Of a stretch of DNA of 64,000 bases, positions 3,694 to 17,836 are shown piece after piece. The position numbers and the translations under genes were made by a program. The notes beneath the pieces are model-generated. The model saw only the letters and a program-made list of their open reading frames with translations, was not told the DNA's origin and did no database searches. Source of the DNA: Candidatus Alistipes faecavium (GTDB lineage: Bacteria > Bacteroidota > Bacteroidia > Bacteroidales > Rikenellaceae). Location: the NCBI GenBank assembly GCA_019118605.1, contig DWYP01000046.1:1-64000 (forward strand). Reading direction: 5' to 3'. Numbering within the stretch: the stretch's first letter is position 1; every line of letters starts with the position of its first letter.

Positions 3694-4545
3694 ATGCTGA
3701 AAATAGCGATCCAGGCCAAGGGCCGACTCAATGAACAAAGCATCGAACTGCTCGCCGAAGCGGGAATCCGCGTCGCCGAGAGCAAACGCAAACTCATCTC
3801 GCGGGCCGAAGGTTTCCCGCTCGAGGTGCTCTACCTGCGCGACGACGACATTCCCCAGGCCGTGGCAATGGGTGTCGCCGACCTGGGCATCGTCGGGATG
3901 AACGAAGTGGCCGAAAAGGGCTTCCCGGTCGAGGAGGTCATGCGCCTCGGGTTCGGCGACTGCCGCATCTCGCTCGCCGTGCCCAACACGGTCGACTACC
4001 CGGGCCTTGCGTTTTTCAACGGCAAGCGCGTGGCAACCTCCTATCCCAAAATTCTCTCGCGGTTCTTCGCCGAGCAGGGAATCCAGGCCGAGATCCACAC
4101 CATCGAGGGATCGGTCGAGATAGCCCCGGCCGTGGGCATGGCCGACGCCATCTTCGACATCGTCTCCTCGGGCGGCACGCTCATCTCCAACGGACTGGTC
4201 GAGGTCGAAAAGGTCTTCTATTCGGAATCGGTGCTCATCGCTTCGCCATCGCTCGGCGATGCGGCCCGTCAGGAGATCGGGCAGCTCACCTTCCGTTTCC
4301 GCTCGATTCTCGAGAGCCGCGGCATGAAGTACGTGCTCATGAACCTCCCGAAAGAGCGCCTCGACGAGGCCATCCGCATCCTGCCCGGCATGCGCAGCCC
4401 GACGGTGCTGCCCTTGGCCCAGGAGGGATGGTGTTCGATCCACGCCGTCATCTCGGAAGAACAACTTTGGGAGCGCATCGAACGGCTCAAGGCCATCGGC
4501 GCCGAGGGGATCCTGGTCCTCGCCCTCGAAAACATGATCCGATGA
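3694..4545 (+). CDS. hisG: ATP phosphoribosyltransferase
   Basis: MLKIAIQAKGRLNEQSIELLAEAGI... long-form HisG with C-terminal regulatory domain; first gene of his operon. Confidence 0.95.
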   Translation: MLKIAIQAKGRLNEQSIELLAEAGIRVAESKRKLISRAEGFPLEVLYLRDDDIPQAVAMGVADLGIVGMNEVAEKGFPVEEVMRLGFGDCRISLAVPNTVDYPGLAFFNGKRVATSYPKILSRFFAEQGIQAEIHTIEGSVEIAPAVGMADAIFDIVSSGGTLISNGLVEVEKVFYSESVLIASPSLGDAARQEIGQLTFRFRSILESRGMKYVLMNLPKERLDEAIRILPGMRSPTVLPLAQEGWCSIHAVISEEQLWERIERLKAIGAEGILVLALENMIR

Positions 4546-4564
4546 ACCCAACCCTTACGACCAC

Positions 4565-5878
4565 ATGGAGACATTGAAGATATACAACGAGCCCGAACGG
4601 GCCGAATGGGCGGCGCTCACCGAACGCGTCACCCGAGCCGAGGAGGAGATCACACAACAGGTCGCCGCGATCCTCGCGGAGATAAAGGCGGGCGGCGACC
4701 ACGCCCTGCGCGCCATCACACACCGCATCGAGGGTCGTGAAGCCGTCCAGTTCGAAATTCCGGCCACAGTACGCCGCGCTGCCGCCGAGCGGATTCCCGC
4801 GGCGCTGAAAAAGGCGCTCGCCACGGCAAAGACCAACATCGAGGCCTTCCACCGGGCGCAACTGCCCGGGGAGGTGAGCGTCGAGACAATGCCGGGCGTA
4901 CGGTGCGTCCAGCGCGCGCTGCCGATCCGCCGCGTGGGACTCTACGTCCCGGGCGGGAAAGCCCCGCTCTTCTCCACGGTGCTCATGCTGGCCGTTCCGG
5001 CACGTGTCGCCGGATGCCGCGAGGTGATTCTCTGCACCCCAGCCTCGCGCGAAGGCGAGGTCGCACCCGAGATTCTCTATGCCGCCGAGCTGTGCGGTGT
5101 CGACCGCATCTTCGCCGTGGGCGGAGCGCAGGCCGTCGCCGCCATGGCCTACGGCACCGAGAGCATTCCGCGCGTAGACAAGATTTTCGGCCCTGGGAAC
5201 CGCTACGTGACGAAGGCCAAGCAACTGGTCGGCGCCAACGAGGTAGCCGTCGACCTGCCGGCCGGGCCCTCCGAAGTCCTCGTCCTGGCTGACGATACGG
5301 CTTCGCCCGCAGCGGTTGCCGCCGACCTGCTCTCGCAGGCCGAGCACGGCGCCGACAGCCAGGCAGTACTGGTCTGTGCCTCAACGGCCTTCGCCCGCAA
5401 TGTCCAGCGGGCCGTCACCGAACAGCTGAAGGTCCGCCGCCGCGGGGAGATCATCCGCGAGGCGTTGCAGCAAAGCCGCATCATCGTGCTGCCCCGACGC
5501 GCCGACCGCATCGAATTTTCGAACGCCTACGCCCCGGAGCACCTGATCCTCTCGACGGAGGAGCCGTGGAGCGTCGCGGCCGAGATCACCGCCGCCGGAA
5601 GCGTCTTCGTGGGAGCCTGGTCGCCCGAAAGTGCCGGCGACTACGCTTCGGGGACGAACCATACCCTCCCGACGGGCGGCTGGGCACGAGCCTACAGCGG
5701 GGTGAACACCGATTCGTTCCTGCGCAAGATCACCTTCCAGGAATTGACGCGCGAAGGGCTCGAACGGCTGGCCCCGACCATCGTATCGATGGCCGAAGCC
5801 GAGGGGCTCGACGGTCACGCCGCAGCCGTACGCATCCGCCTCGAAGAGGCACAACGGCAGGAAGGAGGTGCGCAATGA
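4565..5878 (+). CDS. hisD: Histidinol dehydrogenase
   Basis: GLYVPGGKAPLFSTVLMLAVPA, GPGNRYVTKAKQLV, GPSEVLVLAD. Confidence 0.97.
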   Translation: METLKIYNEPERAEWAALTERVTRAEEEITQQVAAILAEIKAGGDHALRAITHRIEGREAVQFEIPATVRRAAAERIPAALKKALATAKTNIEAFHRAQLPGEVSVETMPGVRCVQRALPIRRVGLYVPGGKAPLFSTVLMLAVPARVAGCREVILCTPASREGEVAPEILYAAELCGVDRIFAVGGAQAVAAMAYGTESIPRVDKIFGPGNRYVTKAKQLVGANEVAVDLPAGPSEVLVLADDTASPAAVAADLLSQAEHGADSQAVLVCASTAFARNVQRAVTEQLKVRRRGEIIREALQQSRIIVLPRRADRIEFSNAYAPEHLILSTEEPWSVAAEITAAGSVFVGAWSPESAGDYASGTNHTLPTGGWARAYSGVNTDSFLRKITFQELTREGLERLAPTIVSMAEAEGLDGHAAAVRIRLEEAQRQEGGAQ

Positions 5879-6909
5879 GGAGCCTCGACGAACTGGTACG
5901 CCCCAACATCCGGGCGCTGAAACCCTACTCCACGGCCCGCGACGAATACGCCGGCGGGGCAATCTCGACGTGGCTCGATGCCAATGAGAATCCCTATGAC
6001 AACGGTATGAACCGCTACCCCGACCCGCACCAGCGGGAGTTGAAACGGCGGATCGCCCGCCTGAAGGGGGTGCGCGAAGGCCAGATATTTCTGGGAAACG
6101 GCAGTGACGAAGCGATCGACCTCCCCTACCGGATCTTCTGCTCGCCGGGGCGGGACAACGCCGTCTCGATCGCCCCGACCTACGGCATGTACCGCGTGGC
6201 GGCCGACATCAACGACATCGAGATGCGCGAGGTGCCGCTCGGCGACGACTTCGCGCTGCCGGTCGACGCCCTGCTGGCCGCCTGCGACGAACACACGAAG
6301 TTGCTGTGGCTCTGCTCGCCGAACAACCCCACGGGCAACGCCTTCCCGGCGGCCGAGATCGAGCGCCTCGTGCGTGCGTTCGACGGCATGGTCATTCTCG
6401 ACGAGGCCTACATCGATTTCGCCTCGGAACCGGGATTCCTGCCGCGTCTCGACGAGTTCCCGAACCTGATCGTCCTGCAAACCTTCTCCAAAGCGTGGGG
6501 CATGGCGGGCGTGCGTCTCGGTATGGCCTTCGCCTCGGAGCCGGTCGCCAAGCTCATGGCCCGCGTAAAATATCCCTACAACATCAACTGCCTGGCACAG
6601 GCGACAGCAGCCGAGCGCCTCGCATTCGACATCACACCACAGGTGGCGGAACTCCGCTCCGAACGCAGCCGCATGATCGAGGCCCTCGCCACGTGCCGGG
6701 CCATCGAGCGGGTCTACCCTTCGGATGCCAACTTCCTGCTGGTACGCACCCCGGCACCCGACCGGTTGTACAACGCACTGATCGAAGCCGGGGTCATCGT
6801 CCGCAACCGCTCGCACGTGCGGGGCTGCGAAGGATGCCTACGCATCACGATCGGGCGTCCTGAGGAGAACGACCGCATGTTACGAACCGTACAAGATTTC
6901 CGCCCATGA
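5875..6909 (+). CDS. hisC: Histidinol-phosphate aminotransferase
   Basis: [48 protein letters not shown] overlap with hisD. Confidence 0.96.
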
Positions 6910-8033
6910 AAAAAGCCCTCTTCATCGACCGCGACGGCACGATCATCGCGGAACCCGCCGACGAGCAGATCGACAGTCTCGAAAAACTGGCGTTCGTACC
7001 CGGAGCGATCTCGGGGTTGAAGTCCCTCACGGGTCTCGGTTTCGAACTCGTGCTGGCCACGAACCAGGACGGTCTGGGCACGGCGTCGTTTCCCGAAGAG
7101 ACCTTTTGGCCCGCGCACGAAAAAATGCTCGCAACGCTCCGCGGCGAGGGGGTCACCTTCGACGAAGAGCTCATCGACCGCACGTTCGAGCACGACAACG
7201 CCCCGACACGCAAACCCCGCACAGGGATGCTCGCCCGCTACATGGACGGCTCGTACGACCTTTCCGGGAGCTACGTCATCGGCGACCGTGTGACCGACAT
7301 CCTGCTGGCCCGCAACCTCGGGGCGCAAGGCATTCTGCTCCGGCCCGCGGACGAAGGGCGCCGGATGCTGAAGGAGGCCGAAACCTCCGACACCTGTGTC
7401 CTGGTGACCGACTCGTGGAAGGAGGTCGCCGAATTCATCCGTCGCGGGGAACGACGGGTCGAAATTCGGCGCGAGACGCGCGAGACGCAGATCCGCGTGC
7501 GCCTCGACCTTGACGGGCGCGGCGACTTCAACGACCGCATCTCGACCGGGCTGCGCTTTCTGGACCACATGCTCTCGCAGATCGCCCACCACGGCGGCGT
7601 AGCCCTCGAGGTGGAGGCCCGGGGCGACCTCGACATCGACGAGCACCACACGATGGAGGACGTGGCCATCACGCTGGGCGAGGCGATCGACCGCGCTCTG
7701 GGCTCGAAAGCCGGCATTGCCCGTTACGGATTCGCCCTGCCGATGGACGACTGCCGGGCGATGGTGCTCCTCGACTTCGGCGGGCGGATCGACTTCGAGT
7801 GGGAGGCCGAATTCCACCGCGAACGGGTCGGCGACGTCCCCACGGAGATGTTCCGCCACTTCTTCCACGCGCTGTGCTGCGCCGCACGGTGCAACCTCCA
7901 GATCGCGGCCCGCGGCGAAAACGACCACCACAAGGCCGAAGCGATTTTCAAGGCCTTCGCCCGCGCGCTGCGCATGGCCGTAGCGCGGCAAGGATTCGGA
8001 TACGACATACCCAGCAGCAAAGGAGTCCTATGA
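6906..8033 (+). CDS. hisB: Bifunctional histidinol-phosphatase/imidazoleglycerol-phosphate dehydratase
   Basis: N-terminal [13 protein letters not shown]-terminal [34 protein letters not shown]. Confidence 0.97.
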
Positions 8034-8632
8034 TAGCCGTCGTCGATTATGCCACGGGCAACCTGAGATCGGTTGCCGATGCCCTGCACCGTGCCGGGGC
8101 CGAATTTACCCTGACGGCCGATCCCGCGCTGCTGCGCACGGCCGACCGGGTCATCCTGCCCGGCGTCGGCGAGGCCTCGAGCGCCATGGCGAAGCTCCGC
8201 GAACGGGGCCTCGACGCGGTGATTCCCACGCTCTCATGCCCCGTGCTGGGCATCTGCATCGGCATGCAACTGATGTGCCTCACGAGCGAGGAGGGCGACG
8301 CCCGCTGCATGGGTATCTTCCCGACACACGTGCGGCGGCTTGCGGGCGACACGCCGGAGGGCGGGCGGCTGAAGGTGCCCCACGTGGGGTGGAACACGAT
8401 CGAAGGGCTGCAAACGCCCCTCTTCGAAGGGCTTCCGGAGGAGAGTTTCGTCTACTACGTACACTCCTACGCGGCCGAACTCTGTCCGGCGACGATCGCC
8501 ACGACCCGTTACGGCGAGGCGTTCAGTGCGGCACTCGCGCGCGACAACTTCTTCGGCACGCAGTTCCATCCCGAAAAGAGCGGCCCCACCGGAGCAAGGA
8601 TCATTCAGAACTTTCTAAACCTACGTCCATGA
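8030..8632 (+). CDS. hisH: Imidazole glycerol phosphate synthase glutaminase subunit
   Basis: [39 protein letters not shown]; overlaps hisB stop. Confidence 0.96.
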
Positions 8633-9360
8633 ACATCACCATCATACCGGCCACGGACCTGATCGACGGACAGTGCGTGCGCCTGACGCAGGGCGACTAC
8701 GCCAGCAGCAAAACCTATTACCGCGACCCGCTCGAGGCGGCCCTGCGCTTCGAGGAGGCGGGCATCCGCCGCCTCCACATGGTCGACCTCGACGGCGCCA
8801 AGGCCGCAGAGCCGCGGAACCTGCGGGTCCTCGAACGCGTGGCGACGAAGACCTCGCTCGAAGTGCAGTTCGGCGGCGGCATCAAGAGCCGCGAAGCCCT
8901 CGGGAGCGTCTTCAACGCCGGGGCCCGGCGGGCCATCTGCGGCAGCGTGGCGGTGCGAGACCCGGAGGCGTTCGCCGAATGGCTCGAGGAGTTCGGCCCG
9001 GAACGCCTGATCCTCGGCGCCGACCTGCGTGACGGAAAAGTCGCCATCCAGGGATGGCTCGAGGAGTCCTCCATCACCGGTTCGGAACTGATCGGACAAT
9101 TTGCCGCACGGGGACTCACGCAGGCCATCTGCACCGACATCTCGCGCGACGGCATGCTCTGCGGCCCGTCGGCCGCCCTCTACGCGGAGTTGCAACGGCA
9201 GTTCCCCGAGGTGGAGATCACCGTCAGCGGCGGGATTGCGGCGATGGACGACATCCGGGAACTCGACCGGCAGGGATTGCGCAGCGTCATCGTCGGCAAG
9301 GCCCTCTACGAAGGACGTATCACCCTCAACGAAATCGAACGATGCTTGCGAAACGCATAA
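8629..9360 (+). CDS. hisA: ProFAR isomerase
   Basis: [38 protein letters not shown]. Confidence 0.96.
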
Positions 9361-10094
9361 TCCCCTGCCTCGACATCCGCGACGGCCAAACTGTCAAGGG
9401 TATCCATTTCGAGGGGCTGCGACAGGTCGGCGACCCCGTGGAACTGGGGGCGAAATATGCCGCCGAGGGGGCCGACGAACTGGTCTACCTCGACATCAGC
9501 GCCACACACGAAGGACGCCGGACATTCACCGACCTGGTGGCACGCATTGCCGCACGCATCGACATTCCGTTCACCGTGGGCGGCGGCATCGCATCGGTCG
9601 ACGACGCCGGGCGGCTGCTCGACGCCGGGGCCGACAAGATCACACTCAACAGCGCCGCCGTGCGTGAACCGGCACTGATCGACGCCATCGCCTCGAAATA
9701 CGGGTCCCAGTTCGTCGTGGCGGCAATCGACGCCCGCACGGTCGACGGCCGCTGGGTCGTGACGACCCACGGCGGACGCCGCCCCACCGAACGCGAGCTT
9801 TTCACATGGGCCCGGGAGGCCGTCGAACGCGGCGCCGGGGAGATTCTCTTCACCTCGATGGACCACGACGGCACAAAAAACGGTTATCCGTGCGAAACCT
9901 TTGCGCGGCTTGCCGAGTTGCCCGTGCCGATCATCGCCTCGGGAGGCGCCGGAACGGCAGACCACATCGCCGACGTCCTGACCCTCGGGAAGGCCGATGC
10001 AGCCCTGGCGGCCAGCATCTTCCACTACAACGAGATTCCGATCCCCGTGCTGAAGCAGGAGTTGAAACAACGGGGCATCGCCGTCAGACTCTAA
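9342..10094 (+). CDS. hisF: Imidazole glycerol phosphate synthase cyclase subunit
   Basis: [45 protein letters not shown]. Confidence 0.97.
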
Positions 10095-10133
10095 AAAACA
10101 ACGAACATAAAATCACGAAAAAACAGGAAAACC

Positions 10134-10754
10134 ATGAAAATTTCCGGAAAACCCTTCTCGGAACTCGCTACCGAGAAACTCCCCGGCGGACTGGTGCCCG
10201 CCGTCATCCAGGACGCACGCACCCTCCAGGTGCTCATGCTGGGCTACATGAACGAAGAGGCCTACGACAAGAGCCTCGCCGAAGGACGCGTGACCTTCTA
10301 CAGCCGCTCGCGCCAGTGCCTTTGGACGAAGGGAGAGACCAGCGGACACTGGCTCGATATCGTCTCGGTGGCCGCCGACTGCGACAACGACACGCTGCTC
10401 GTGCGCGTCATTCCCCATGGCCCGACGTGCCACACCGGTTCGAAAACCTGCTTCGGAGAGGCCGTACCCGAAACCGAAGGGTTCATCCGTTACCTGCAAA
10501 GCGTCATTCAGGGACGCCATGCCGAAATGCCCGAAGGCTCCTACACCTCGAAACTCTTCACGCGCGGAGTGAACAAAATCGCCCAGAAAGTCGGCGAGGA
10601 GGCCGTCGAAACGGTGATCGAAGCCGTCGCCGGCAACCGCGATGCAATGATCTACGAGGCGTCGGATCTCATCTACCACCTGCTCGTCCTGCTCGAGGCC
10701 ACGGGATGCACGATCGCCGACCTCGAAAAGGAGCTCGCCCGACGCCACTCCTGA
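10134..10754 (+). CDS. hisIE: Bifunctional phosphoribosyl-AMP cyclohydrolase/phosphoribosyl-ATP pyrophosphatase
   Basis: VTFYSRSRQCLWTKGETSGHWLDI; TRGVNKIAQKVGEEAVETVIEA. Confidence 0.96.
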   Translation: MKISGKPFSELATEKLPGGLVPAVIQDARTLQVLMLGYMNEEAYDKSLAEGRVTFYSRSRQCLWTKGETSGHWLDIVSVAADCDNDTLLVRVIPHGPTCHTGSKTCFGEAVPETEGFIRYLQSVIQGRHAEMPEGSYTSKLFTRGVNKIAQKVGEEAVETVIEAVAGNRDAMIYEASDLIYHLLVLLEATGCTIADLEKELARRHS

Positions 10755-10852: not shown

Positions 10853-10982
10853 GCTATGTTTTATATACGTTTTCGCATACCTTTACGTAAAAAAATCGTA
10901 TATTTGCGAAATGGGATTGGCACACCAATATCCTGTGCCGAAGTTCCGAAATACCACGAACAACCATAAAACCAATACGACC

Positions 10983-12287
10983 ATGAACCTCAAATCTTCC
11001 CGACGCCCGTTCCAGGCCCTCCTGGGGACCGGGCTCCTTGCTTTCGGGCTCTGCGCGTGCGGACCGCAACACAACACCCTCACCGACGAAGAAATCGCCG
11101 ACGGTTGGCAACTGCTCTTCGACGGCAAGAGCCTCGACCAATGGAAAGACTTCAACGGCGACTCGCTCACGATGCCCTGGCACGTAGTCGACGGCTGCAT
11201 CCAGGCCGCCGGCGACGGGAGCGACCTCTCGGGATACATCGTCACCAAGAAACAATACGAAAACTTTATCCTCGACTGGGATTGGAAGCTCTCCTACGGC
11301 GGAAACAGCGGCATGCTCTACCATGTGGTCGAGGACCCCTATTTCCAGGTACCCTATGTCACGGGACCGGAGTATCAGCTGATCGACAACGAGGGCTGGG
11401 AGGAGCGTAACGCCCCGACGAAACTCGAAGAGTGGCAGCAGCTGGGCGTCGACTACGCCATGCACCTGCCGAATCCCGACTCGATGTTCGTCAACCCGCA
11501 GGGCGAGTGGAACAACTCGCGCATCGTCTGCGACAACGGGCACATCGAACATTGGCTCAACGGACACAAGATTCTCGAATTCGAAGCCTACACCGACGAC
11601 TGGTTCGCCCGCAAGAACAGCGGCAAATGGGAGATGGCTCCCGAATACGGTCTGGCCCACAAAGGCGTCATCTGCCTCCAGGACCACGGAGACCCCGCGT
11701 CGTTCCGCAACCTGAAGATCAAGGAGCTGCCGCGCAAGGCCGGCCGTGAAGTCAGCCTCTTCAACGGCAAGGACCTCTCGGGTTGGGAGGCCTACGGAAC
11801 CGAAAAGTGGTACGTCGACAAGCAGGGACAACTCGTCTGCGAAAGCGGCCCCGACAAGCAATACGGCTACCTCGCCACGCGCGAATACTACAACGATTTC
11901 GACCTCACGCTGGAGTTCAAGCAGCTGGCCAACGGCAACTCGGGCGTCTTCTTCCGCTCGTTCGTCGAGCCGCCCGTAAAGGTGCACGGATGGCAGTGCG
12001 AAGTGGCTCCCAAGGGCTTCGACACCGCCGGCATCTACGAATCCTACGGCCGCGGATGGCTCGTACAGATTCCCGACGAAAAAGAGTCGATCCTCAAGGA
12101 GGGCGACTGGAACACGCTGCGCCTGCGCGTCGAGGGCGACCGGGTGCAGACCTGGCTCAACGGCGAGGAGATGGTTGACATCACCGACGCCAAGATCGGC
12201 GCCGCCCAGGGCCGCATCGCCCTGCAGATCCACGACGGCGGAGGCATCAAGGTCCTCTGGCGCAACATCCGGCTGACCACCCTGTAA
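10983..12287 (+). CDS. Lipoprotein with two tandem DUF1080 (3-keto-disaccharide hydrolase-like) domains
   Basis: Signal peptide with lipobox-like GLCACG; WQLLFDGKSLDQWKDFNG and VSLFNGKDLSGWEAYG starts; both domains end in FRNLKIKEL/WRNIRLTTL. Confidence 0.85.
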   Translation: MNLKSSRRPFQALLGTGLLAFGLCACGPQHNTLTDEEIADGWQLLFDGKSLDQWKDFNGDSLTMPWHVVDGCIQAAGDGSDLSGYIVTKKQYENFILDWDWKLSYGGNSGMLYHVVEDPYFQVPYVTGPEYQLIDNEGWEERNAPTKLEEWQQLGVDYAMHLPNPDSMFVNPQGEWNNSRIVCDNGHIEHWLNGHKILEFEAYTDDWFARKNSGKWEMAPEYGLAHKGVICLQDHGDPASFRNLKIKELPRKAGREVSLFNGKDLSGWEAYGTEKWYVDKQGQLVCESGPDKQYGYLATREYYNDFDLTLEFKQLANGNSGVFFRSFVEPPVKVHGWQCEVAPKGFDTAGIYESYGRGWLVQIPDEKESILKEGDWNTLRLRVEGDRVQTWLNGEEMVDITDAKIGAAQGRIALQIHDGGGIKVLWRNIRLTTL

Positions 12288-12317
12288 ACGCATCGCAACC
12301 CAAACCAAACCGAAGAT

Positions 12318-13598
12318 ATGACGACCCGAAGGAACTTTCTCAAGACATTGGGCGGACTGACGCTGCTGACCATCGTTCCGCGCAATGTACTCGGCGGCCC
12401 GAAGCACATCGCCCCGAGCGACCAACTGACTAAAGGTATCATCGGCGTGGGCGGCATCGGCCGCAGCAGCTACCACTTCACCAGCGATAAGGCTTGCCGA
12501 CTGGTAGCCATCTGCGACGTCGACCGCAACCACCTGCAAAGCGCCCTGGAGATGGGCAAGAAGAAATTCGGCGAGACGCTCCAGACCTACCACGACTACC
12601 GCGACCTGATCAAGGACGTCAATGTCGACGTGGTGCACATCGCCACCCCGCCCCACTGGCACGCCCTGATGGCCGTCGAGGCGGCCAAGGCCGGGAAGGA
12701 CATCTGGTGCGAAAAGCCCATGACGCGCACCATCGGCGAAGGAAAACGCGTCGTGGAGGCCGTACGTCAGAACGGACGCATCTTCCGGCTGAACACCTGG
12801 TTCCGCTTTACGGACACCTTCTACGGACTGGGTACGACGGTCGAGCCGCTGAAGAAACTCGTCGACAGCGGGTTGCTCGGATGGCCGCTGAAGGTGACCA
12901 TCTCGGGATCGACGGGATTCACGTGGAAATTCTTCTGGGTGGGCAAGGAGAATCTCAAGCCCGAACCCGTTCCCGCCGAACTGGATTACGACATGTGGCT
13001 GGGCCCCGCCCCCTACAAACCCTATAACAGCCACCGCGTGCACCAGACCTTCCGCGGCTACTGGGACTACGACGGAGGAGGCCTTACGGACATGGGCCAG
13101 CACTACATGGACCCCGTGCAGTACCTGCTGGGCAAGGACGACACCTCACCCGTAAAGATCGAGGTCGACGCCCCGCAGCAGCACCCTGACGCCGTGGGCA
13201 TCTGGCACAAGATCGTCTACACCTACGACGACGGCTGCCAGATCATCCTCGAGGGTGAAGGGTTCGAGAGCCCCGGCAAAACGCCCTACATCGAGGGGCC
13301 GCTGGGTAAAGTCTACAAGGGTTTCGAGTGCACGATTCCCAACGTGATGGAGAAGATCGCCGAACTGCCCGATCCGAAGCCGCAGAACACCGACTTCATC
13401 CGCTGCATCCACAACCGTGAACGCTTTGCGCTGAACGAGGAGAACGGACACCGCAGTTCGACGCTCGTGAACCTTGGTGCCTGCGCCGTGCGGCTCAACC
13501 GCACGCTGCACTTCGATCCCGTGAAGCAGCTCTTCATCGGGGACGATGCCGCCAACCGGCTCATCGACCAACCGATGCGTTCGCCGTGGAAAATCTGA
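12318..13598 (+). CDS. Gfo/Idh/MocA-family oxidoreductase with twin-arginine signal
   Basis: TTRRNFLKTLGGLTLLTIV Tat-like signal; IGVGGIGRSS Rossmann; CEKPMTRTIGEG. Confidence 0.9.
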   Translation: MTTRRNFLKTLGGLTLLTIVPRNVLGGPKHIAPSDQLTKGIIGVGGIGRSSYHFTSDKACRLVAICDVDRNHLQSALEMGKKKFGETLQTYHDYRDLIKDVNVDVVHIATPPHWHALMAVEAAKAGKDIWCEKPMTRTIGEGKRVVEAVRQNGRIFRLNTWFRFTDTFYGLGTTVEPLKKLVDSGLLGWPLKVTISGSTGFTWKFFWVGKENLKPEPVPAELDYDMWLGPAPYKPYNSHRVHQTFRGYWDYDGGGLTDMGQHYMDPVQYLLGKDDTSPVKIEVDAPQQHPDAVGIWHKIVYTYDDGCQIILEGEGFESPGKTPYIEGPLGKVYKGFECTIPNVMEKIAELPDPKPQNTDFIRCIHNRERFALNEENGHRSSTLVNLGACAVRLNRTLHFDPVKQLFIGDDAANRLIDQPMRSPWKI

Positions 13599-13621
13599 CA
13601 ACCCCCTAACCCGACAAGACG

Positions 13622-16396
13622 ATGAAAAAATTCCTATATCTGTTTCTGCTCTTCCTGCTGCCGGCAACGGCCGGGGCACAGGATGCCCGCCAGCGCAGTC
13701 TCGAGACGATCGTGGCCGACGGACTGGCCCAACTCCCGGCCGAAAACACGCAGTCGCTCAATGCCGTGATGCAGGAGCTCGCCGCCACGGGAGCGCGCGG
13801 TGTGGAGATGATGGCCGGGATGCTCGTCCCCGCCGCCGAAGGGAAAAACGCCACGGTGGAATATGCCCTAAGCGGCGTGGTGAACTACGCCACGGCCAAA
13901 GGACAGGAAGCGCAGCTCGAAGGTATCCGCCAGGGATTGGAAAAGGCCCTGAATGCCTGCACCGACAAGACGAACCAGGCATTTCTGCTCTCGCTGCTCC
14001 AGCTGTGCTCGACCGAAGAGCAGATTCCGCTCTTCGTACGGTATGCCGATGACGAGTACCTGGCCGATGCAGCCATTCGTGCCCTCATCCAGACCCCGTC
14101 ATCGGAGTCCGCGATCCTTTCACTGATGCAGAACCGGGAGGGCGGAGAACCCTCAGCGCTGCTGGCCTATGCCGCCTCGAAACGTCCGAGCGAAGGGGCC
14201 GAAGATATTCTCCTTGCTTGGCTTGCAGACTACGAGACCGACAACGCAACGAAAGAGGCCATCTACAACGCCTTGGCCGCATGCGGCACGTCGAAATCAC
14301 TGAAAACGCTCGCCGAAGCAGCCGAGGCCTCGGATTATGGATTCCTGCCCTGCGACGCCACGAGCGCCTACCTGCGCCTGCTGGGCCGCCTGGCTGTGGA
14401 CGGTAACCGCAAAGCCCTTTCAACCGCCAAATCGCTGCTGCGCTCCGACCGTCCGAACATCCGCACAACGGCCCTCGACATCGTGCTCCGCGCCGACGCG
14501 GCCAAACGGACCCAATACCTGCTGGCAGCATTGAAGGATGACAACCGCGAATACCGCTGCGCCGCCCTGCACCTGGCCGACTGCTTCGCCGACGAAGCGC
14601 TCTACGCAGCCGTCGCCGGGAAGGCTTCGTCGCTCGACAACACGGCACGGACGGATATCGTCAACTGGCTCGGAAGCCGCCACGCCGTCTCGCAGAGCGG
14701 GATGGTCATCGCCTCGATGGCTTCGGAAAACGAAGAGTTGGCCCTCGCAGCCATCCGCGCCGCCGGGAAAATCGGCGGAACGGAGGCGCTCGAAGCGCTG
14801 ATCGCCCAACTCGACGGCCCGTACGGAGCCCAGGCCGAAGCCGCCATCGCCGCCTTCAACGGCAATGCCAACGACGCACTCGTCGCGGCACTCGACGCTT
14901 CGCCCGCCACCCAGGCCCGGGCACTCGGGCTCGTTGCCGCACGCCGCAACGTCAAAGCCGCCGACAAGGTCTTCACGCTGCTGAACGCCGAGTCCGCCGA
15001 AGTAAGGGATGCAGCCTACCGGGCGCTCGCGGGCGTCACTTCGCCGAGCGATTTCGACCGGCTGTGCGACCTGCTCGACAAGGCCTCGGACGATCGGGTT
15101 GCGGCGTTGCAGGACGGGCTCAAAAACGCCCTTGCCGGCGTGGAGGCCGACGAACAGTACCGGCTCGTAGCCGGCCGCATGGAAGCCTCCGCAGACGCAC
15201 CGCGTTACTATCCGCTGCTGGCTCAGGCCGCAACGCGTCAGGCGATCGACGCTCTGCTCGCCGCCACGGACCGTGAGGCCGCCTTCAAAGCCCTGCTGAC
15301 GCTCGACAACCCGGAGATGATCGGTGTATTGTACGACCTTGCCAAGGAGAATCCGGCCTGGAAGGATGCCGCCATCTCGCGCTTTGCGGACTTCGTGGCA
15401 GCCGCTCCGGCCGACAAGCAGGTTGGGTACTACCGCCAGGGGCTTGAGACCGAACCGTCGGAAGAGGTACAGAACAAACTGCTCACCGCCCTGGCCGACA
15501 CCCGTTCGCTGCCGGCCGTGGAGATCGCAGCCCACTACCTCGACAATCGGGCTACCGCAGTATCCGCCGCCTACGCCGTGAAGAGCATCGCGGCAAAAAA
15601 TCCCGGCATGGGAGGCGAAACGGTCGTTGCGGCGCTCGAGAAGGCCCGGGAGGTCTATATCGACTGGTCCAAGACCGACCCCGATGCCGGATACGCCGTT
15701 GACGAGATCAAGGGGCTGCTGGCCAAATACGCCGCCGTGCCGCGCTTCGAGCTCTCGCCCGAGGAGGCCGCCGAAGGGTTTGAGGTTCTCTTCGACGGGC
15801 TTTCGCTCGAAAAGTGGACGGGCAATAAGACCAACTATGTGCCCGTCGACGGGACAATCTACGTCACTGCCCAGTACGGAGGCAGCGGGAATCTCTACAC
15901 GATCAAGGAGTACGGCGATTTTGTCCTGCGCTTCGAGTTCGCCTTCGACCGCGAAGGCGTCAACAACGGCATCGGGATCCGTACGCCGATGGGCGTCGAC
16001 GCCGCCTACCACGGCATGGAGATCCAGGTGCTCGACCACGACGCCCCGATCTACAAGGACCTGCACGTCTACCAGCAACATGGATCGGTCTACGGCGTGA
16101 TCCCGGCAAAACGGGTCAAGTTCCCGCCGCTGGGGACATGGAACGTCGAGGAGATTCGCGCCGTCGGCGACCGGATCACCGTAACGGTCAACGGAGAGGT
16201 GATTCTCGACGGCAATATCCGCCAGGCCTGCAAGGGACACAACGTGGCACCCGACGGATCGTCGAAGAACCCCTATACGGTGGATCACCGCAACCACCCG
16301 GGACTCTTCAACAAGAGAGGACACATCGGGCTGCTCGGACACGGCCCCGGGATCAAGTTCCGCAACATCCGCATCAAGGAGTTGCCGGCGAAATAA
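13622..16396 (+). CDS. HEAT-repeat protein fused to a C-terminal DUF1080 domain
   Basis: Signal peptide; helical repeats (e.g. LALAAIRAAGKIGGTEALEALIAQL); C-terminal FEVLFDGLSLEKWTGNK...GPGIKFRNIRIKELPAK. Confidence 0.85.
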   Translation: MKKFLYLFLLFLLPATAGAQDARQRSLETIVADGLAQLPAENTQSLNAVMQELAATGARGVEMMAGMLVPAAEGKNATVEYALSGVVNYATAKGQEAQLEGIRQGLEKALNACTDKTNQAFLLSLLQLCSTEEQIPLFVRYADDEYLADAAIRALIQTPSSESAILSLMQNREGGEPSALLAYAASKRPSEGAEDILLAWLADYETDNATKEAIYNALAACGTSKSLKTLAEAAEASDYGFLPCDATSAYLRLLGRLAVDGNRKALSTAKSLLRSDRPNIRTTALDIVLRADAAKRTQYLLAALKDDNREYRCAALHLADCFADEALYAAVAGKASSLDNTARTDIVNWLGSRHAVSQSGMVIASMASENEELALAAIRAAGKIGGTEALEALIAQLDGPYGAQAEAAIAAFNGNANDALVAALDASPATQARALGLVAARRNVKAADKVFTLLNAESAEVRDAAYRALAGVTSPSDFDRLCDLLDKASDDRVAALQDGLKNALAGVEADEQYRLVAGRMEASADAPRYYPLLAQAATRQAIDALLAATDREAAFKALLTLDNPEMIGVLYDLAKENPAWKDAAISRFADFVAAAPADKQVGYYRQGLETEPSEEVQNKLLTALADTRSLPAVEIAAHYLDNRATAVSAAYAVKSIAAKNPGMGGETVVAALEKAREVYIDWSKTDPDAGYAVDEIKGLLAKYAAVPRFELSPEEAAEGFEVLFDGLSLEKWTGNKTNYVPVDGTIYVTAQYGGSGNLYTIKEYGDFVLRFEFAFDREGVNNGIGIRTPMGVDAAYHGMEIQVLDHDAPIYKDLHVYQQHGSVYGVIPAKRVKFPPLGTWNVEEIRAVGDRITVTVNGEVILDGNIRQACKGHNVAPDGSSKNPYTVDHRNHPGLFNKRGHIGLLGHGPGIKFRNIRIKELPAK

Positions 16397-16498
16397 CATG
16401 GCTACCGTCGGGGAAGGATCGCAAAACGGAGCGTATCCCTTCCCGGCAGTATGGTTTTGTCGCAAATAAGTCGTACCTTTGTTCCACATCGGGAAGTG

Positions 16499-16527
16499 CT
16501 CCTCGCGGACGTGTCGCCCGCGAGGAG
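16499..16527 (+). promoter_or_regulatory. Strong hairpin in the 5' UTR of the second Gfo/Idh/MocA gene
   Basis: CTCCTCGCGG-acgtgtcgc-CCGCGAGGAG between TACCTTTG (16474-16481) and ATG 16565. Confidence 0.5.
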
Positions 16528-16564
16528 TTCTGGTACGATCCACTTTCCACAACCGCAGAAACCC

Positions 16565-17836
16565 ATGAACGACAACACTGCGTCCCGCCCGATCACAATC
16601 GTGGCCATCGGAGCCGGGAACCGTACCAACAAATACCTCGAATACGCCGTCCGCTATCCCGAACGGCTGCAATTGGTCGGAGTCGTCGAACTGAACGACA
16701 TCCGCCGGCATGCCGTAGCCGAAAAGTTCGGCCTGAAGGCAGAGCAATGCTTTACGGATTACGACTTGTTTTTCGAGCACCCGATCCCGGCCGACGCCAT
16801 TCTGATCGGCACACCGGAGAACCGGCACTTCGACCCCTGCATGAAGGCCATCGAGGCAGGATACCACGTCCTGCTGGAGAAGCCCATCGCCCAGACCCTG
16901 CCGGAATGTTGTCGGATCGCCGAGGCCGCACGCCGCAAGGGGGTTATCGTCGGCGTCTGCCACGTGTTGCGGTACCACCCCTACTTCATCAAGATCAAGG
17001 AGCTGGTCGATTCGGGCGAACTGGGAGAGATCATCTCCATCAGCCACCTGACAGCCGTGGGACTGGACCGCTCGACCCATGGATTCGTCCGGGGCATGTG
17101 GCGACGCGAGGAGCTCTCCAATCCGATGCTGATCTCCAAGAGCTGCCACGACATCGACTTTCTGCTCTGGCTTACCAAGTCCCGCTGCCGGCGGCTCTCT
17201 TCGTTCGGGTCGCTGCGCTGGTTCCGACGCGAAAACGCACCGCAGGGAAGCACGGCCCGCTGCATCGACTGCCCGCTTGAGCCACAGTGCCCCTACTCGG
17301 CCGTCGACCTCTATGACGTACGCCGCGACTGGATATCGAATTTCGACGTCCCGGCCGGATCGACCCTCGACGAGGTCATCCAGCGCGAACTCCGCGAAGG
17401 CGACTACGGACGCTGCGTATTCCATTGCGACAACAACGTCGTCGACCACCAGATCGTATCGATGGAGATGGAGAATGAAGTCACGATCTCGTTCTCGATG
17501 GATGCCTTCACGCTCGGCGACCAGCGGGAAACACACATCCGACTCACCCACGGAGAAATCGACGGTGATGAACGGACCCTGCGTGTGCAAACCTTCCGCG
17601 GGCGGAAAGAGCGGGTCTACGACTTCTCGGACATCCTCGGAACGCCGTTCCACGCGGGCGCCGACCTGAACCTGATCGAGGATTTCGTCGACATCCTGAC
17701 TCATCCCGACCGACAGTTGCGCACAACCATCGACCATTCGGTTGAAAGCCATCGTATCTGTTTCGAGGCCGAGCGCAGCCGCCTCACCGGCGAGACAATC
17801 ACGCTGGACCGCGGCCCGATCCTCCAGAAGAAATAA
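16565..17836 (+). CDS. Gfo/Idh/MocA-family oxidoreductase (cytoplasmic)
   Basis: ITIVAIGAGNRTNKYLEYA; LLEKPIAQTLPEC; no signal peptide. Confidence 0.88.
   Translation: MNDNTASRPITIVAIGAGNRTNKYLEYAVRYPERLQLVGVVELNDIRRHAVAEKFGLKAEQCFTDYDLFFEHPIPADAILIGTPENRHFDPCMKAIEAGYHVLLEKPIAQTLPECCRIAEAARRKGVIVGVCHVLRYHPYFIKIKELVDSGELGEIISISHLTAVGLDRSTHGFVRGMWRREELSNPMLISKSCHDIDFLLWLTKSRCRRLSSFGSLRWFRRENAPQGSTARCIDCPLEPQCPYSAVDLYDVRRDWISNFDVPAGSTLDEVIQRELREGDYGRCVFHCDNNVVDHQIVSMEMENEVTISFSMDAFTLGDQRETHIRLTHGEIDGDERTLRVQTFRGRKERVYDFSDILGTPFHAGADLNLIEDFVDILTHPDRQLRTTIDHSVESHRICFEAERSRLTGETITLDRGPILQKK

Follow-up and report, generated by a model that had tools for sequence, protein, structure and literature searches.

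Does the locus at positions 10983–17836 of the DNA analysed here encode an oxidoreductive glycan-cleavage system, and is it the one already known? The DNA is a 64,000-nucleotide stretch of Candidatus Alistipes faecavium (contig DWYP01000046.1), referred to as the window, and the locus consists of four plus-strand genes, G1–G4. A preliminary description made from the letters had named these genes, and Pfam profile matches place each of them exactly where it had put them. We find the locus to be a well-supported variant of the known oxidoreductive glycan-cleavage system, with a different dehydrogenase and with a predicted activity and substrate. G1, G2 and G3 probably form a periplasmic system that would oxidise, eliminate, hydrate and reduce glycosides, as a variant of the AL1–AL3/BT2157–2160 pathway. 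We favour this reading because of fold matches to AL3 and DUF1080 proteins, conserved catalytic residues, the co-conservation of G2 with G3, and the co-occurrence and linkage of genes for twin-arginine translocation (Tat). The oxidoreductive glycosidase pathway in question reportedly comprises AL1-AL2-AL3 in Alistipes and BT2157–2160 in Bacteroides thetaiotaomicron (B. theta) (Nasseri et al. 2024, Nature 631:199, as cited in PMC13273386).

The G2–G3 pair and the PF06439 domains

G2 (12318–13598) is a Gfo/Idh/MocA oxidoreductase with a twin-arginine leader (MTTRRNFLK), a Rossmann domain (GFO_IDH_MocA, 75.8 bits) and a PF19051 domain matched over its whole length (472.4 bits); the AL3-like enzyme of the same genome matches PF19051 only in part (57.8 bits). 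The hallmarks of the Gfo/Idh/MocA family are all found in G2, namely a Rossmann domain that binds nicotinamide adenine dinucleotide (NAD), the EKP lysine and the D-x3-H motif, and Lys133 (of EKP), Asp258 and His262 are invariant in 25/25 aligned sequences, AL3-like ones included. G3 (13622–16396), as annotated with Pfam, AlphaFold2 and Foldseek, encodes 924 residues with a Sec signal, a HEAT solenoid (approximately residues 27–704; HEAT_2, 72.5 bits) and a C-terminal PF06439 (DUF1080) domain (15776–16378). Its AlphaFold2 model has a mean predicted local distance difference test score (pLDDT) of 88 and shows a helical solenoid followed by a beta domain, the mutual placement of which is unreliable given a predicted template modelling score of 0.58. 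The nearest solved folds that Foldseek gave for the beta domain are DUF1080 structures, among them AL2, BT2157 and the eliminase/hydratase 8rr2/9fbe; the solenoid matched importins and other HEAT proteins. Literature searches on DUF1080 with 3-keto or HEAT returned nothing on a HEAT–PF06439 architecture.

G2 stands directly upstream of G3 in 39/40 G3-bearing Bacteroidota loci, the exception (L033) being a 4-kb contig that starts inside G3. In a survey of the family, 20 of 91 genomes have G2, and G3 comes next in 20 of the 21 G2 copies; distribution is patchy, and within the window's genus only 3 of the 13 genomes sampled have G2. G1 was found in 17 of the 91 genomes (11 with G2) and G4 in 15 (9 with G2), and several G2-bearing genomes have G1 and G4 on other contigs. 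Homologues of G1 that are 79–94% identical adjoin G2 in 12 named loci; where G1 lies elsewhere it usually adjoins housekeeping genes, and in one genome it has Tat-leader proteins on one side and more Gfo/Idh-like matches on the other. Co-conservation holds for G2 and G3, and G1-G2-G3 look like one unit, but G1 and G4 are separable. Two further forms were seen: 10 loci have longer G3 homologues of 1112–1166 residues, ~190–240 over the 924 of the window's, and HEAT-free single-domain PF06439 proteins 60–70% identical to the G3 C-terminus occur at G089:C14:44759–45433 and G080:C9:41911–42543, with no G2 found in either genome.

G1 (10983–12287) encodes a lipoprotein of 434 residues (lipobox LCAC) with two PF06439 domains, at 11103–11723 and 11751–12275, which together score 289.5 bits; the G3 domain scores 126.8 bits, and the gathering cut-off is 26.8. 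The candidate catalytic residue is His235 (QDHG, 11685–11687) in the first G1 domain, and its equivalents are His417 (QIH, 12231–12233) in the second and the invariant His907 (16340–16342) in G3. By alignment this histidine is also present in two genes discussed below, on contigs C23 and C49 of the same genome, and it is invariant in 11 G1 and 24 G3 sequences. QDHG of 8rr2 is aligned with QDNG in 9fbe, a change from His to Asn between two entries for the B. theta 3-keto-glycoside eliminase/hydratase. Judging from its position and the PDB titles, this would be the H275N variant of the B. theta lyase, which is deficient in hydration (PMC13273386). The earlier assignment of DUF1080 proteins as 3-keto-glycoside hydrolases agrees with the catalytic histidine, which is kept in all three window domains, but the predicted chemistry is an elimination with subsequent hydration, not a direct hydrolysis. 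The preliminary description had named lost catalytic residues and a lack of co-conservation as grounds for refutation; its reading survived both checks, on the histidine in the three domains and on the adjacency of G2 and G3.

Tat genes and the known pathway

One tatA and one tatC were found in the window's genome (90% complete), both inside the cluster of AL type on contig C23. In relatives they also accompany the G2–G3 pair: L007, L009 (Alistipes montrealensis) and L032 have tatA-tatC between G3 and G4, L071 has them after G3, and the order G1-G2-G3-tatA-tatC-G4 occurs. In 8/30 genomes tatC lies no more than ~2.1 kb from the gene of the BT_2158 family. TatC was found in 20/20 G2-bearing genomes vs 41/71 others (p ~1e-4), and in 33/34 genomes with either dehydrogenase vs 28/57 without (p ~6e-7), tests that ignore relatedness and incomplete genomes. 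A Tat system serving Gfo/Idh enzymes exclusively was rejected, other candidate twin-arginine leaders of the window's genome (G000:C47:127468–127527, C6:80638–80721 and C45:8434–8502) being carried by one unassigned protein and two aldo/keto reductase-ferredoxin-like proteins.

The C23 cluster (L067, 3966–9947) is made up of a BT2159-like gene (698 bits to the BT_2159 family), tatA, a BT_2158 family gene (901 bits), an AL2-like DUF1080 gene, an AL1-like triosephosphate isomerase (TIM) barrel (431 bits to 8tcd) and tatC, and adjoins GH97 and SusR-like genes. Its DUF1080 gene is a close homologue of 8v31 (530 bits), titled AL2, 3-keto-2-hydroxy-glucal hydratase. Elsewhere, on C49 (L068, 4649–7440), a twin-arginine Gfo/Idh gene that reaches 276 bits with the BT_2158_fam model, below its cut-off, is followed by a double-DUF1080 gene like BT3469. 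The window locus itself was rejected as a copy of the known AL1–AL3/BT2157–2160 cluster, since the BT_2158 and BT_2159 models failed and the TIM-barrel lyase is missing. What it shares with that cluster is a twin-arginine Gfo/Idh enzyme beside a PF06439 protein, conserved catalytic residues, a G2 fold nearest to AL3 and linkage to tat genes; what sets it apart is a dehydrogenase of a separate subfamily with full PF19051, the lack of a TIM-barrel lyase and of any BT_2159 family member, the HEAT–PF06439 fusion in G3 and the double-domain G1. The window domains have the PF06439 fold and the QDHG histidine of the single-domain 8rr2/9fbe (BT2157), but occur as double (G1) or HEAT-fused (G3) copies with identities of ~25–33%. 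G1 and the C49 gene resemble the double DUF1080 protein BT3469 (4jqt) in their tandem domains, but the order in G1 is reversed, its first domain matching the second of BT3469 and vice versa.

Several observations weigh against our reading. G2 scores 141.6 bits vs the 750-bit cut-off of the BT_2158_fam glycoside 3-dehydrogenase equivalog (NF058561) and shares ~30% identity over ~260 residues with the AL3-like enzyme that its own genome encodes; it belongs to a different subfamily. The solved structure nearest to the G2 model in the fold search is the Alistipes glucoside-3-dehydrogenase AL3 (8tdf, E 7e-17; also 8tdh), a match that is supporting and not independent evidence because the model's alignment included two AL3-like rows, and confidence in the model is moderate (pLDDT 74.6). 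Tat export of the oxidoreductase, as proposed earlier, is supported by the genome's TatA and TatC, but the twin-arginine leader (RRNFLK) falls just short of the TIGR01409 cut-off (15.6 vs 16.7 bits), and in a ruminant clade the G2 leader has RK in place of RR. No TIM-barrel lyase of AL1 type was found in the window, an AL1-like query matching C23 loci only. Finally, AL2 and BT2157 are titled hydratases in the PDB, and elimination by the G1 and G3 domains is a predicted role.

Predicted reactions and alternatives

In the sequence of events that we propose, G2 would fold in the cytoplasm with NAD bound and be exported by Tat, and would then oxidise the C3 hydroxyl of a sugar. The PF06439 domains of G3 and G1 would remove the aglycone by beta-elimination and add water to the 2-hydroxy-3-keto-glycal, after which G2 would reduce the 3-keto sugar and so regenerate NAD+. 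The most likely task of the HEAT solenoid in G3 is to dock G2 or the substrate, and G4 would probably serve as a cytoplasmic accessory oxidoreductase. The interesting parts are the pairing of the enzymes and the connection to Tat: a second dehydrogenase subfamily conserved with a HEAT–PF06439 partner suggests that gut Bacteroidota cleave glycans by oxidation with more than just the AL/BT2157–2160 enzymes, and Tat would explain an NAD-dependent enzyme in the periplasm, the cofactor being carried along. Since G2-G3 occur in cultured species (Alistipes montrealensis, Dysgonomonas hofstadii and Parabacteroides bouchesdurhonensis), these proposals are directly testable. A bolder version, which we consider rather improbable, is an obligate periplasmic G2–G3 complex in which the HEAT solenoid would keep the dehydrogenase, with its NAD, in contact with the eliminase/hydratase, so that oxidation, cleavage, hydration and re-reduction would proceed without release of 3-keto intermediates, with the Tat translocase evolving within such loci.

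The genes beside G2-G3 in relatives bear on the substrate. The order SusC-SusD-G2-G3 occurs in L029 (with FecR too), L039 and L082, pointing to imported oligosaccharides there, and in ruminant Alistipes a mannonate dehydratase gene (uxuA, 580 bits) and a D-mannonate oxidoreductase gene (365 bits) lie divergently beside G2-G3, pointing to uronides in that clade. With the latter neighbours in mind, G2 might oxidise glucuronides at C3, as P2B11 does, and G3 eliminate the aglycone to feed hexuronate catabolism. The glucuronide-3-dehydrogenase P2B11 (8tdi) is indeed among the fold matches of G2, with which it shares the Gfo/Idh fold and, as predicted for G2, C3 oxidation of glycosides. It ranks behind AL3, however, and is the more distant of the two; divergent neighbours need not have common substrates, and the window lineage has his rather than uxu genes next to the locus. 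We think it unlikely that the window's enzymes act on uronides in this way. As a separate observation, in 14 loci uxuA beside G2-G3 goes together with the absence of G1 and an RK leader on G2.

The locus could also supplement the AL cluster instead of forming an independent pathway: AL3 would produce 3-keto intermediates for G1–G3, which would rely on that cluster's Tat translocase. This would fit the presence of a BT_2158 family enzyme in 16/20 G2-bearing genomes (Fisher p ~1e-6) and the position of the genome's only Tat genes found, inside the AL cluster. Four genomes (G015, G052, G058 and G064; 83–90% complete), however, have G2-G3 and no BT_2158 family gene that we could find, and in G058 tatA-tatC lie beside the pair; we consider a supplementary role unlikely. 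Least probable of all is that G2 has another function, such as aldose or inositol oxidation or reduction, and that the DUF1080 domains are glycan-binding modules without oxidative cleavage: Gfo/Idh folds serve many reactions, hundreds of folds match G2 and the DUF1080 domain overlaps CBM66 (PMC5673643), but a catalytic histidine is present in every domain and the G2–G3 pairing recurs in kind in the AL cluster.

Transcription units, neighbouring genes and G4

The intergenic gaps are 30 bp between G1 and G2, 23 bp between G2 and G3 and 168 bp between G3 and G4. Compared with a sister locus (L006), all four genes are under purifying selection, with ratios of nonsynonymous to synonymous substitution rates of 0.07 (G1), 0.04 (G2), 0.18 (G3) and 0.09 (G4). 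Across the window there are 24 copies of the Bacteroidota −7 motif TANNTTTG, with 6.3 expected; on the plus strand one copy (TATATTTG, 10899–10906) lies 84 bp before G1 and another (TACCTTTG, 16474–16481) 91 bp before G4, whereas the 250 bp ahead of G2 and of G3 contain none. From this distribution of motifs, a single transcription unit would seem to cover G1-G2-G3, and G4 may be transcribed separately. When the full TTTG-TANNTTTG pattern was required at a spacing of 17–23 bp, none of G1–G4 matched, the −7 part alone being present, and a scan for the sigma-70 consensus gave nothing useful. A similar −7 motif precedes G4 in L069 and none does in 5/6 relatives tested; a separate G4 promoter may be particular to the window's lineage. 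A single operon of all four genes, and with it the compact unit of the preliminary description, was rejected on the G4 motif and on the frequent absence or relocation of G4 and relocation of G1.

Neither SusCD nor uxu genes stand beside G2-G3 in the window. Its neighbours are his biosynthesis genes directly upstream (~3694–10754, ending with hisIE) and DUF3127 and FKBP genes downstream of G4; as had been noticed, no SusCD pair, transporter or classical glycoside hydrolase adjoins G1–G4. The lack of SusCD at this locus is lineage-specific, and the word 'minimal', applied to the system earlier, does not describe it generally: relatives carry SusCD or tatAC beside G2-G3, and the same genome has the complete known pathway elsewhere.

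G4 (16565–17836) is only loosely linked to the other genes. It scores 41.5 bits with the model of the BT_2159 family disaccharide 3-dehydrogenases, far from the cut-off of 650, and is a cytoplasmic Gfo/Idh/MocA oxidoreductase (80.9 bits) without a leader, with EKP, a K-x2-H variant of the D-x3-H motif and three conserved cysteines, Cys233, Cys236 and Cys242.

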